Positions 10,828 through 41,400 of a stretch of DNA of 42,559 nucleotides are shown piece after piece. Source of the DNA: Phycisphaerales bacterium (lineage in GTDB: Bacteria > Planctomycetota > Phycisphaerae > Phycisphaerales > UBA1924); assembly GCA_015487555.1 (NCBI GenBank), contig WFPK01000016.1, positions 1 through 42,559 on the forward strand, read 5' to 3'. The translations under genes were made by a program, and so were the position numbers. The notes under the pieces were generated by a model, which was not told where the DNA came from, did no database searches, and worked only from the letters and a program-made list of their open reading frames with translations. Position 1 is the stretch's first letter; the number at the start of each line of letters is the position of its first letter.

Positions 10828-13800
10828 TCAGAGCATGTTCTTGAGCATGTTCTTGAGATATCGCCCGGTATAGCTCGCCTTTGCCTTTGCCACATCCTCA
10901 GGTGTGCCGCTTGCCAAGAGTGTGCCGCCGGCGTCGCCGCCCTCGGGGCCCAGGTCGATCACCCAGTCGGCACACTTGATGACATCAAGATTGTGCTCAA
11001 TGACAATGAGCGTGTTGCCCGCGTCGGCGAGTCGATTGAGCACCGCGATGAGCTTGTTGATGTCCTCGAAGTGGAGTCCGGTGGTGGGTTCATCGAGGAT
11101 ATAGAGGGTGTGCTCGGAGCTTGGGGTGCCGTCGTGTCGGGTGCCTTTGCCCAGTTCGGTCGCGAGTTTGACGCGTTGGGCCTCGCCGCCCGAGAGTGTG
11201 GTCGAAGGTTGTCCGAGGGTGATGTATCCCAAGCCGACATCGCGCAGGCAGGTGGTGAAGCGGAGTATTTTGGGGTGATTCTCGAAGAAATCGCAGGCGT
11301 CCTCGACGGTCATCGCCAGCACATCGGCGATGTTCTTCCCACGATAGCGCACCTCGAGGGTTTCGCGGTTGTAGCGCTTGGCGTGGCAGACTTCACATTC
11401 GACGAAGACATCGGGGAGGAAGTGCATCTCGATTTTTTTCATGCCTTGCCCGGCGCATGCTTCGCACCGCCCGCCGCCTTTGTTCGAGGCGACATTGAAC
11501 GAGAACCGCCCGGGTTTGTATCCTCGGATTTTCGATTCCTTGGTGGCGGTGAAGACCTTGCGGATGTCGTCGAAGATGCCGGTGTAGGTCGCGGGGTTCG
11601 AGCGGGGGGTTCGGCCGATGGGCGATTGATCGACCTCGATGATGCGGTCGATGTGCTGTAAGCCGGTGATGCGTGAGTGTGTTCCGGGTTTGGTTTTGGA
11701 GCCCATCACATGCTGCTTGGCTGCGCGGAGGAGAATTTGGTTGACGAGTGTGGATTTGCCCGAGCCCGACACGCCGGTGACGGCGAGCATGCCTCCGATG
11801 GGGAAGGGGACATCGATGTTCTTGAGGTTGTTGTGGCGAGCACCCTTGACGACCATCGCCTTCTTCATGTTGAGTTTGCGCCGGGTCTTGGGGACTTGGA
11901 TACTCTTTCGCCCGCTGAGGTAGTCGCCGGTGAGTGAGTCTTTCGCGCTGGTGATGTCGTCGATTTGGCCTTGTGCCACGACGGTGCCGCCGTGGACTCC
12001 AGGGCCTGGGCCGATGTCAATAATGTGGTCGGCTGCGCGGATGGTGTCTTCGTCATGTTCGACGACGAGGACGGTGTTGCCGATATCGGTGAGGTGGCGG
12101 AGCGTGCGGATGAGCCGAGCGTTGTCGCGTTGGTGGAGCCCGATGGTGGGTTCGTCGAGGACATAGCAGGCACCGACGAGACCTGAGCCGACCTGCGTAG
12201 CGAGGCGGATGCGTTGGGCCTCGCCTCCTGAGAGTGTTGCGGTTCGGCGATCGAGCGAGAGGTATTCGAGCCCGACGGATTCGAGGAACTTGAGCCGATT
12301 GATGATCTCGCGGAGGATGGCCTCGGCAATGTGGGCGTGTTCCTTTGAGAGTGTGAGGTTGTCGATGAAGTCGATCGCGTCGGTGATGTTGAGCCGGGCG
12401 AGTTCGGCGATGTTGAGGATCGAGCCGTCGTTTGTGGGGCGTCCGATGATGGTTTTCGACCCGGCTTTGTTCATGTCGGCTTTGTGCGATGACTCGATGG
12501 TGACATGGAGGGCCGCGGTCTTGAGCCGATCGCCAGAACATGATGGGCAGATGATTTCTTGTTGGTATTGGTGGAGGTGGTCCTTGACCCATGAGGATTC
12601 GGTTTTGTGGAACCAGTTGTGGAGCATGGGGTAGACGCCGTCCCATTGCTTTCGGTATTTGGTTTTTCCTTTGAGGTGTGCATTGGCGTATTGGGTGCCG
12701 TGCATGAGGAGGTTGTAGAGGTCATCGGACATGGCCGAGAGGTGCATGGATTGTGGGATATCAAAGGCCCGGCAGAACTTGCGGAGCATTCGCGGATAGA
12801 TCATCCCGCCGGGGCCGTTCTTTTTCCACGGACGGATGGCGTTGTTGAGGATGGCAACATCCTTGTTGGGGACGACGAGCTCTTCGGAGAACTCAAGGAT
12901 GACACCTAGGCCATGACATTCTGGACACGCACCAAACGGGGAGTTGAACGAGAACAGGCGAGGCGAGAGTTCCGAGAGGGAGATTTCGGGATGATCGGGG
13001 TCGGCGAAGTGTTCGGAGAAGGCGTGGTCAGTCCAATCTTCTGTGGCCCGGCTCGCCGAGCCGGGTTCTTGGATTGCCTTTGTGTGTGCTTTGGAAGACC
13101 CGGCTCGGCGAGCCGGGCCACCGTCGGAAGATTGTACGCTGATGATGACCGACCCATCCGCCAAACGCAAGGCCGCCTCGATGGATTCGACCAATCGTTG
13201 GCGGGCATCGTCCTTGATGACAATCCGATCGACCACCGCATCAATCGAGTGCTTCTTATGGCGGTGGAGGTCGAGCGGGTTTTCGGTGTCTTCTTTGAGG
13301 GCTTCACGGAGATCGGTGATTTGGCCGTTGACTCGGGCGCGCATCCACCCCTGCTTGAAGAAGGCTTCGAGGGTGTCCTTGTGGAAGCCTTTTTTGGCGC
13401 GGACGACGGGGGCGAGGACCATGAGCCGAGCGCCTTGCCCGAAGGCCATGACATGATCGACGATCTGCGTTGCGCTCGACGATTCGATCGGGCGACCCGA
13501 GCGAGCGGTGACGGTGCCGTCCTTTTTTTTCTTGGTCGGTGCCCACGAGCGAGGCGTGCCGCAGCGGGCGAAGAGCAGGCGGAGGTAGTCGTAGATTTCG
13601 GTGGTGGTGGCGACGGTCGAGCGTGGGTTGTGTGAAGCTGAGCGTTGTTCGATGGCGATGGTGGGGGGGATGCCTTCGATTTCTTCGATGTCGGGTTTCT
13701 TGAGTTGATCGAGGAACTGGCGGGCGTAGGCGGAGAGGGACTCCATGTATTTGCGCTGTCCTTCAGCGAAGATGGTGTCGAAGGCGAGCGAGGATTTTCC

Positions 13801-38409: not shown

Positions 38410-41400
38410 ATGAAAATCACTCGTCGATTCACCACGGAAGGTACTGACCCGTTCGCATCCACAGAGTGGACCACGCGATCGAGTCGAATCACGAACCCGG
38501 ACGGTTCGGTTGTCTTTGAGATGCCCGATGCCGAGGTTCCCGTTGGGTTCTCGCAGCTGGCGACGGACATTATGGTGTCCAAATACTTCCGCAAGGCGGG
38601 GGTGCCTCAAGATGGTGGGCCAAACGGATTCCCCGGTGGCCCGGCTCGCCGAGCCGGGTCTTCGGATGGGCTGAACCAACAGACCAAGAGTGATGAAATC
38701 AAGAAAGATGAAGAACCCGGCTCGGCGAGCCGGGCCACCAAGGGAGCCACCTCGGAGACCGGCCCCGAACGCTCCGCCCGCCAGGTGATCCATCGGCTCG
38801 CGGGATGCTGGAAGCACTGGGGCGAAACCCATGGGTACTTCGACACCCCCGAAGACGCCCAGGCCTTTTATGACGAACTGGTCTACATGCTGGTGCATCA
38901 GATGTGCGCGCCCAACTCGCCTCAGTGGTTCAACACCGGGCTCAACTGGGCCTATGGAATCTCCGGCCCCGCCCAAGGACACTGGATTGTTGATCCAGAA
39001 ACCGGCGAGCCGGAACTGGCTGACGATGCGTATTCGCATCCCCAGCCTCACGCCTGTTTTATCCAGTCGGTCGATGACTCGCTCGTCAACGAAGGCGGGA
39101 TCATGGACCTCTGGCAACGCGAAGCCCGGTTGTTCAAATATGGTTCAGGCACCGGGACGAACTTCTCGAACCTGCGGGCCGAGAACGAACAGCTCTCGGG
39201 CGGGGGCAACTCGTCGGGGTTGATGAGTTGGCTCAAGATCGGCGATCGGGCAGCCGGGGCGATCAAGAGTGGGGGGACGACCCGCCGAGCTGCCAAGATG
39301 GTGTGCTTGGACATGGACCATCCTGATATCTGCGAGTTCATCAACTGGAAGGTCCGCGAAGAGATCAAGGTCGCGGCACTCGTCGAAGGCATGAAGGTCA
39401 TCCAAGGGACAAAGACTTCGGAGAGTGATTCGGAAACCATCGGCGAAACCGCTGCCCGACTGGGATTGACACTCGACTACGATTTCAACGGCGAGGCCTA
39501 CGCCACCGTTGCGGGTCAGAACTCGAATAACTCGATCCGTATCCCCGATGCGTTCTTTGATGCCGTCGATGCCGGGGCCCAGTGGGAGATGACCTACCGG
39601 ACGACCGGCGAGGTGGTCAAGACGCTCGATGCCAATCAGCTCTGGAACGATATCGCCTACGCAGCCTGGCGCTGTGCCGATCCGGGTGTGCAGTATGACA
39701 CGACGATCAACGCCTGGCACACTTGTCCCAATGCTGGCCGTATCAACGCTTCAAATCCGTGCTCTGAATACATGTTCCTCGATAACACGGCGTGCAATCT
39801 CGCGTCGCTCAATATCCTCAAGTTTTACGACCCTGAAACGCGCGAGTTCGACATCGAATCCTTCGAGCATGGCGTTGATTTGTGGACGATCGTGCTCGAG
39901 ATCAGCGTGCTGATGGCCGCCTTCCCGTCTCGTGAGATCGCCGAGCTGAGCTACAACTACCGCACCATCGGCCTGGGGTATGCCAACCTGGGCGCGATGC
40001 TCATGCAAGCGGGGATTCCATATGACTCCGAGCAGGGCACCGCGGTTTGTGGATGCTTGAGTGCGATCATGACCGGGCGAAGCTATCGCATGAGTGCGAT
40101 GATGGCTGGCGAGTTGGGGGCGTTCCCTGGGTACGAGCCCGAACGCGAGAATATGCTTCGTGTGATCCGCAATCATCGCCGAGCCGCGATGGGGGTTGCT
40201 CGCGATAGTGGTGAGTATGAAGGCCTTCGCATTACTCCGGTCCCGATCAACCACGAACTCATTCGCGATCATAAGGTGCCTTTGGGCAATGCGATGGACA
40301 TGCTCCATCATGCGACGGTCGCTTGGGACGAAGCGTTGCATCTTGGCGAAGAGTTTGGGTATCGCAACGCCCAGACGACGGTTATTGCACCGACCGGGAC
40401 CATTGGTTTGCTGATGGATTGTGATACAACCGGCGTCGAGCCCGACTTTGCACTCGTCAAGTTCAAGAAACTCGCTGGCGGCGGCTACTTCAAGATCGCC
40501 AACGCCTCGATCGACCCTGCCCTCAAGGCGCTCGGGTATGACGATGACCAACGCCGGGCGATGGTTCAATATATTATGGGCACGCTGAACCTGCATGTCC
40601 CGATGCCCAAAGACATCTCCGATAGCGTCGGGCTGTCCCTTGCCGACTGGCTCAGCGAGCGTGGTATGAGCGATGAGGATCTCCAGAAGATCACCGATCA
40701 GCTCCCAGGGGTATTCGAGATTGGATTTGCATTTGGCCCATGGGCATTGAGCGATGAGACCCTCACCCGTATCGGCATCAGCCCAGAGATCGCCAAAGCC
40801 GACGCGAACTTCAACGCGCTCAAGTTTCTCGGGTTGACCAACGCTCATATTGCCGAGTTGAACCAGCTCGTTTGTGGCACGCAAACCATCGAAGGGGCGC
40901 CACATCTCAAAGATGAGCATCTGCCTGTATTCGATTGCGCCAGCACCTGTGGCAACATCGGGACCCGGTTGATCTCCGCCGGCGGGCACATCCGTATGAT
41001 GGCCGGGGCCCAGCCGTTTATCTCAGGGGCGATCTCCAAGACCATCAACCTCCCACACGATGCAACCCTCGAAGATATCAAAGATTCGTACCGCCAGAGC
41101 TGGGAGCTCGGGCTCAAGGCCAATGCGCTCTATCGCGACGGGTGTAAGTTGAGTCAGCCATTGAACGCCAAGAGCGATACCGACAACGAGCTCGACGAGG
41201 ATGTTGTGCTCGACGAGCTCGAACTCGCCGAAGCCTTCGATGAGATCGGCGACGATGTCGTCGAGCTTGCCGATGCGGTGGGCAATGAGAATGTGCGCAT
41301 TGTGATTAAGAAGGAAGTAGAGATTGTGCATCGTCCGATGCGTCGTCGTTTGGCCGACACCCGCCGATCGATCACCCACAAGTTCAATGTCGCCGGGCAC

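Follow-up and report, generated by a model that had tools for sequence, protein, structure and literature searches.

How do paired, GC-rich hairpins come to lie in frame within four core genes of a Phycisphaerales bacterium (a planctomycete represented by a draft assembly), given that mobile DNA is not expected to last in essential genes unless it is removed, as inteins and introns are? A scan of the window (the whole stretch of 42,559 nucleotides analyzed) for the repeat arm, GGTGG followed by CCCGGCTCGCCGAGCCGGG, with up to three mismatches gave 18 matches where shuffled sequences predict 0.10, and 16 of these are eight arms counted on both strands. The arms form four inverted pairs, located where an earlier note on this DNA had placed them: on the minus strand at 13042–13122, 15415–15477, and 21762–21837, and on the plus strand at 38635–38739. 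The arm composition given in that note holds in general, except that the first arm begins TGTGG and two others have one and two mismatches. The host genes it named are borne out by profile matches above cut-off, which identify the open frames as uvrA (10828–14007, minus strand, 1059 residues; NF001503 and TIGR00630), uvrB (14232–16496, minus strand, 754 residues; NF003673 and TIGR00631), smc (18081–22313, minus strand, 1410 residues; TIGR02168), and nrdJ (38410–42033, plus strand, 1207 residues; NF005122 and TIGR02504). Each doublet is in frame with its host and is translated, as GGPARRAG...PGSASRAT in uvrA and nrdJ, as VARLAEPG...PARRAEPP in uvrB, and as AARLAEPG...PGSASRAT in smc; three frame combinations are used and the arm has no stop codon in any of the six frames, both as previously described. 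The GTRG tetranucleotide 5′ of a GC-rich palindrome is that of REP sequences and their REPIN doublets.

The arm belongs to a family dispersed through the genome. Its pattern gave 134 matches genome-wide (some arms being counted on both strands) and the reversed pattern none, so the 19-nt core is far commoner than chance, a check that the earlier note had named. Distinct arms with up to three mismatches number 114 in the stretches read, which were chosen from the arm matches listed and cover 117 arm matches at up to five mismatches; both this high copy number and the prevalence of inverted pairs (50 of the 67 elements read, with a commonest spacer of 29–35 nt) are as in REP/REPIN families. With a codon model, and with one locus containing masked letters (L062) standing outside the assignment, the 67 elements divide into 13 that are intragenic and in frame, three at edges, and 51 between coding stretches, a few of the latter provisionally. 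The family is thus predominantly extragenic, again as expected of REPs, and 25 of the 67 elements begin 7–15 nt past a stop codon. The proposal of a mobile or formerly mobile element that enters genes in frame therefore stands, but the intragenic habit describes a minority of the elements read and is over-represented in the window (4/4 versus 13/67). Frame-breaking insertions were looked for by listing the frames on both sides of eight doubtful elements and by scanning five places with Pfam: L080 and L101 each separate two different genes, L081 and L083 were placed neither way, L035 and L090 stood outside the scan, and L091, close to where an open uvrC frame encodes its N terminus, is a possible fourteenth intragenic copy. 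A palindromic target is ruled out, as left and right flanks are uncorrelated (1.92 matches of 5 versus 2.12 in shuffles). Of 98 element ends, 83% have CC or CT no more than 5 nt away, compared with 28–44% at greater distances, in agreement with the CC cleavage published for a GTGG substrate (PMC8266576).

Comparison with 31 relative sequences at the uvrA, uvrB, and nrdJ sites, of the kind that the earlier note had asked for, found 22 empty sites, eight with different palindromes, and one unclear. The uvrA site is empty in eight of 10 relatives and holds other palindromes in two; the uvrB site is empty in six of 11, with four holding other palindromes and the unclear case; and the nrdJ site is empty in eight of 10 and holds another palindrome family in two. 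The insert peptides are not conserved at these three sites, and an old protein feature is ruled out there, since 30 of the 31 sequences are empty or different. At the smc site, the insertion is shared, in decayed form, with one relative (G016). The relatives' loops outside this coverage include valS of G013, smc of G019, and uvrA of G001 and G016.

A likely source of the doublets, missed by the earlier note, lies outside the window. A valine-tRNA ligase open frame of 1337 residues holds, in frame, a REP-associated tyrosine transposase (RAYT) whose two bounding REP arms are those of the window pairs, i.e. the genome's own dispersed inverted REPs. The RAYT matches profile NF047646 (E 7e-29, 100.6 bits, cut-off 80), which places it with the HUH/Y1 RAYTs; AlphaFold2 predicts its blocks with a pLDDT of 85–97, and the best Foldseek match of the predicted RAYT is 4er8, TnpA_REP with a REP hairpin. 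This copy is not a stand-alone gene: its first 112 codons contain no ATG, GTG, or TTG, and the other five frames of the element have 3–14 stops each. A second RAYT in the same genome is stand-alone. In another relative (G008), the uvrA and uvrB doublets bear the arms of that genome's own valS RAYT. From the shared arms, we regard it as probable that the window pairs are non-autonomous, GTGG-headed REP doublets (REPINs), most likely spread by the in-frame valS RAYT. This RAYT was found just once in its own genome, so it may hardly move itself; a single copy is usual for RAYTs.

We know of no transposase linked to the Rickettsia palindromic elements. These were among the parallels named in the earlier note, and are similarly palindromic, located within protein genes, and translated (cited in PMC3733652), but the closest parallel is the other one named, the REP family, in the form of REP/REPIN sequences with their IS200/IS605-related RAYT transposase (TnpA_REP). 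That system shares the GTRG head, the GC-rich palindrome, the high-copy inverted doublets, the two inverted REPs flanking the RAYT, the HUH motif and tyrosine, and a similar fold, as described in the sources consulted (PMC2817692; PMC3116915); it differs in that here the RAYT lies in frame within an essential gene, with no separate gene, and in that no standard start codon precedes the core of our copy. Contrary to the view that no planctomycete equivalent has been described, REPs in Planctomycetes are reported by Di Nocera 2013 (PMC3733652), which also describes REP dimers in open reading frames, including uvrA, and REPs in uvrB. The intragenic GTAG/CGTC REPs of that report encode 20–30 residues as dimers and are often found in excision-repair and other repair genes, and also in tRNA synthetases; as it presents them, short REPs alone enter reading frames, and RAYTs are genes with REPs or other inverted repeats on their flanks (PMC3733652). 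Short intragenic REPs are therefore already published, and the novelty is the RAYT embedded in frame in valS. A literature search for RAYTs inside host genes, with subscription papers and preprints mostly beyond its coverage, returned no such paper.

The embedding recurs among related RAYTs. Both flanks derive from one host gene at 63 of the 70 RAYT loci read (56 genomes, 34 genera; 71 matches, with G185 left out), in a search whose embedded RAYT query favours embedded relatives. The hosts of in-frame embedded RAYTs are valS, rdgB, leuS, and, as single cases, miaA, kbl, and hscA. In named genomes, the same holds for 54 of the best 80 loci (of 410 relatives), many of which lie on contigs already present in the family set, and ileS, purH, and DUF1156 are further hosts. 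HUH and the tyrosine are kept in 67 of 73 RAYTs. Inverted arms, palindromic and lineage-specific, are present at 28 of 30 family loci tested; in G122 the RAYT's own two arms are the sole copies of their type, and in six genomes (G104, G139, G160, G180, G115, and G112) the pattern present in many copies is one that was not found beside the RAYT that was read. In 57 of 66 family members (40 with ATG; 11 with a Shine-Dalgarno-like motif), an in-frame start lies either in the first eight codons of the RAYT domain or no more than 45 codons upstream of it, which limits the point about a missing start to our own copy.

This recurrence bears on the simplest alternative, that the pairs are ordinary intragenic REPs and the valS RAYT one accidental insertion. 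Intragenic REPs are known from several phyla (PMC3733652) and intragenic elements are a minority of those read here, but the same loops are struck repeatedly and, given the family-wide embedding, a reading confined to ordinary REPs is strongly disfavoured. That the inserts are removed before the host functions, by protein splicing, RNA splicing, or ribosome bypass, is likewise very improbable. Essential hosts found once per genome (25 genomes each have a single ValRS locus above cut-off) and very stable predicted hairpins (three of the window pairs were folded, giving −59 to −73 kcal/mol) would fit removal; however, the Pfam and NCBIfam matches of the valS protein include no Hint or splicing domain, so an intein was rejected, a group I or II intron was rejected because Rfam gave no match over the 1201 bases of the valS element and its flanks (E up to 0.1), and bypass or RNA splicing would not require strict frame and the absence of stops. 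Inteins and homing elements occupy fixed in-frame sites in essential genes with patchy presence and turnover, all of which the embedded RAYTs share; unlike in inteins, no splicing domain was found and the insert, judged by its sequence, stays in the protein.

An unlikely but more serious alternative is that the embedded RAYT is a domesticated, immobile domain that descends vertically with ValRS, LeuRS, or RdgB and is retained because it serves the host. The host gene changes only 13 times on the RAYT tree compared with 54.9 in shuffles, a strong clustering (the tree omits seven partial or broken sequences, and two rdgB labels rest on one flank), dN is lower than dS in 11 of 11 chosen RAYT pairs, implying purifying selection, and nearly all cases have one host locus per genome. 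Yet palindromic arms are retained, there are the lone hosts noted above, and a single valS loop within one genus is empty in seven species and filled in seven (six with a RAYT, one with another Y1 element), the filled loops between them containing at least four kinds of Y1 element. In that genus, the member nearest by ValRS flanks (G016) has a host 94% identical and a RAYT only 39% identical, and the opposite mismatch also occurs, with a RAYT 86% identical where the ValRS flanks are 76%. From the 39% versus 94% conflict, the RAYTs seem to turn over; since a topology test did not reject a single clade of the genus's valS RAYTs (p 0.41), a point in favour of domestication, independent gain rests on the identity mismatch.

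Over domestication, we lean towards an intein-like life without splicing for a clade of HUH transposases. In tRNA synthetases, RdgB, PurH, and other essential proteins, their open, REP-flanked elements would be permanent, translated internal domains, which would settle in the same loops again and again in different species and scatter short in-frame hairpins through the genome. The RAYT would recognise GTGG plus hairpin on single-stranded DNA, cleave at a nearby CC or CT, and paste the doublet elsewhere. Insertions would survive past stop codons, or within genes only if they contain no stop, keep the frame, and fall in a loop that tolerates them. Being open end to end, the RAYT element would itself survive in such a loop of an essential enzyme. 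Transcription and translation of the host gene would include it, as an internal domain with arm-encoded linkers, and it would be hard to lose by imprecise deletion. We infer that the fusion protein may be active, that its element may transpose, and that residence in essential genes may be advantageous.

A transposase thus appears to persist as a tolerated, translated part of an essential enzyme; if true, this is one answer to the persistence of single-copy RAYTs, and an unusual host-parasite protein fusion becomes directly testable. The embedded elements would also serve as natural maps, showing which loops of tRNA synthetases and repair proteins tolerate insertion. An earlier survey, in the part consulted, discarded long RAYT-like proteins as fusions or annotation errors (PMC6006769), and some of these may be real. 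The valS insert of one genome (G015) resembles the class 3 TnpA_Y1 proteins of that survey, an assignment by motif and Pfam Y1_Tnp alone, and differs from those described there in lying in frame within valS (PMC6006769). This insert contains a Y....Q-like motif, and the repeat on its flanks turns up again in short inserts of relatives.

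Eight arms, each a 19-nt palindrome with a GGTGG head, were located in the window, where 0.10 matches are expected by chance; they form four inverted pairs, which gene recognition and frame reading place in frame in uvrA, uvrB, smc, and nrdJ, as the earlier note had claimed. The arm has no stop codon in any of the six frames, again in agreement with that note. RNA folding of three of the pairs predicts a hairpin from each arm and, from both arms together, one long stem (predicted energies of −65, −59, and −73 kcal/mol for the uvrA, uvrB, and nrdJ pairs, respectively). The further claim that no planctomycete equivalent had been described does not hold: REPs (short dispersed palindromic repeats) have been published in Planctomycetes, as have REPs within uvrA, uvrB, other repair genes, and tRNA synthetase genes (PMC3733652), and the REP doublet has been reported as the mobile unit (PMC3116915). 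Two of the window pairs likewise lie inside uvrA and uvrB, and the window pairs alone are further examples of already known elements. The novelty is a REP-associated tyrosine transposase (RAYT) embedded in a host gene. RAYTs with inverted REPs on both sides have been published (PMC2817692); the RAYT in valS of this genome is additionally in frame within its host gene. One survey mentions setting aside long Y1 proteins, which it took for fusions or errors of annotation (PMC6006769), and among the papers listed in our literature searches we found none describing RAYTs in frame within host genes. The window also holds another inverted palindromic pair, of the GGGTGCCACGGCTTGACCC type (4891–4982), which overlaps a 757-aa ORF (2786–5059) and apparently represents a second REP-like family, and two related low-complexity repeats of the GGCAATGGG type (4840–4875 and 38294–38329), 89% alike and 33 kb apart.

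Searching the 2.64-Mb genome (115 contigs) at ≤3 mismatches gave 68 forward and 66 reverse arm matches, a few fully palindromic arms being counted on both strands, versus 0 for a reversed control, so the arm is commoner than expected. The stretches read contain 117 arms (114 with ≤3 mismatches), which make up 67 elements; 50 of these are inverted pairs, with a commonest spacer of 29–35 nt, and the other 17 consist of one arm each. Placement by stop checks and a codon-usage model trained on five host genes bears out the earlier note in that intragenic in-frame copies exist, yet these are only 13 of the 67 elements; 13 lie between opposite-strand genes, 38 between same-strand coding stretches, and three at edges. 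The spacing is narrow in 25 of the 38 same-strand intergenic copies, where the element starts 7–15 nt past the stop of the upstream frame. Further intragenic hosts are mqnE-like, rimO, amidohydrolase, glycogen debranching enzyme (two elements), UbiD-type decarboxylase, and kbl genes. No frame-breaking insertion was proven, the doubtful elements being two between different genes, one possibly in frame in uvrC, and at least four unplaced. The uvrC case is a single arm near the N-terminal end of an open frame (locus L091, 1358–1381) and a possible further in-frame copy; uvrA, uvrB, and perhaps uvrC would then all carry copies. One doublet (locus L095, 2506–2668) has a spacer made up of ATTCATCGTTC-type units repeated in tandem.

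A Y1_Tnp search of the same genome found two places, one of which, on contig C25, lies within a 1337-aa valine-tRNA ligase (ValRS) frame. This insert measures 666 nt from arm to arm, has arms identical in type to those of the window pairs, scores as a RAYT (NF047646, 100.6 bits; cut-off 80), and is open in only one frame. Its first 112 codons contain no ATG, GTG, or TTG, and the RAYT profile match starts at residue 68, so that a complete standard-start RAYT would require synthesis within ValRS. Alignment to the solved ValRS structure 1gax shows the flank resuming at chain residue 377, immediately ahead of the conserved ISRQLWWGH. For the loop region, taken from 27 genomes and including partial ValRS flanks, AlphaFold2 predicted the RAYT part with pLDDT values of 85–97 per ten-residue block; linkers and partial flanks scored low (mean 67, pTM 0.47). 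The top PDB match of the predicted structure is 4er8, a RAYT with bound REP hairpin. The same valS carries a second, short doublet (locus L033, 1540–1617). A second RAYT of this genome, of 213 aa, stands alone (locus L034, 1827–2468); no window-type arm was found in the surrounding 4.5 kb that were read.

Searched against the family's 150 genomes, the embedded RAYT protein matched at 71 places, in 59 of the genomes and 36 of 74 genera. Both flanks came from a single host gene in 63 of 70 loci read (56 genomes, 34 genera), a proportion biased upward by the use of an embedded RAYT as query. The hosts are valS (27), rdgB (17), and leuS (16, divided between two sites), plus a single case each of miaA, kbl, and hscA. 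Of the remaining seven loci, three reach a contig end on one flank, one is masked, and three are stand-alone or fragments. Inverted arms, their palindrome varying by lineage, stand beside 28 of 30 RAYTs tested, and the catalytic HUH and Tyr were detected in 67 of 73, the six failures being three fragments, two with a residue lost, and one pattern miss. Two valS-embedded RAYTs (loci L174 and L193) have lost a catalytic His or Tyr and apparently are decaying, although their frame is still open. In a quick tree built from 97 rows, with many forks unresolved, a 98% branch splits embedded RAYTs from 27 stand-alone ones, host labels change 13 times versus 54.9 in shuffles, and one more short frame (L169) groups with the embedded RAYTs.

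Assembly error is an unlikely source of these frames, since one rdgB case lies on a chromosome record (L297) and one valS case in a one-contig genome (G110). Regarding additional host copies, ValRS loci above cut-off number one per genome in 25 of 25 genomes tested, several of them incomplete, and the interrupted rdgB is alone in 17 of 17; rdgB is uninterrupted in the window's genome. The RAYT-bearing leuS is present in 16 of 16 genomes, three of which have an additional leuS piece; that of G174 may be the remainder of the RAYT-bearing gene. A single origin of the valS RAYTs within the genus was not rejected by a clade test (140 columns, p 0.41), and the case for RAYT turnover therefore rests on mismatched host and RAYT identities and low dN/dS. 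Compared with G016, the closest relative by ValRS flanks, uvrB, and smc, the flanks are 94% identical and the RAYT just 39%; between G016 and G001 the host is 76% and the RAYT 86% identical. In 11 of 11 chosen RAYT pairs dN is below dS. Among 14 genus members read, the valS loop is empty in seven, holds a RAYT in six (three arm types), and in G015 holds a different Y1 transposase, in frame (locus L147, 919–1485; Pfam Y1_Tnp, Y....Q-like motif).

Among 31 relative sequences read, the uvrA, uvrB, and nrdJ sites of the short elements are empty in 22, filled by different palindromes in the same places in eight, and unclear in one. At the smc site G016 has a decayed copy of the insertion in the window's genome. 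In G008 the arms of the uvrA and uvrB doublets are those of its own valS RAYT. The repeat flanking the G015 Y1 element recurs in uvrB or nrdJ inserts of G014, G015, and G016, one arm having diverged in some, and kbl of the window's genome has a lone arm where G104 has a whole RAYT. Arms of valS RAYTs searched in their own genomes gave 57 (G110), 42 (G173), and 54 (G112) matches, and these three patterns gave zero in the window's genome. Exceptions are G104, G180, G139, and G160, with many copies of a pattern not seen beside the RAYT read there, although in G180 the second pattern does match; G112 and G115, with the same discrepancy for the one RAYT whose arms were compared in each; and G122, which has no arms of its type besides the two terminal ones. 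In a characterized RAYT, a GTAG to GTGG change shifted cleavage to CC (PMC8266576). CC or CT occurs ≤5 nt outside 83% of 98 element ends, versus 28–44% in windows further out, an enrichment consistent, at the sequence level, with RAYT-type single-strand cutting.

Beyond the family, a phylum-wide search with the RAYT family model returned, among the best-scoring matches listed, nearly all short stand-alone frames. From 410 RAYT relatives in named genomes the best 80 were taken, many of them on contigs that the family set also includes. In 54 of these 80, a single host gene was matched by both flanks: valS (21), rdgB (12), DUF1156 (7), ileS (6), purH (5), type ISP enzyme (2), and hscA (1), the flank references for ileS, purH, DUF1156, ISP, and a methylase being drawn from within the set; the methylase frame (L329), whose flanks matched only themselves, was left out of the count. 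The others among the 80 are six one-flank cases, 18 stand-alone, and one unclassified. By record title, the DUF1156 cases are deltaproteobacterial (including the isolate Desulfoferrobacter suflitae), Elusimicrobia, Solibacteraceae, Armatimonadota, and one planctomycete. In a deltaproteobacterial MAG, a DUF1156 protein has a GIY-YIG domain as well as the embedded RAYT (locus L277, 2828–6301). A record titled Cyanobacteria (L307) corresponds to contig C32 of G077, a genome of the window's family, and its title is apparently misassigned.
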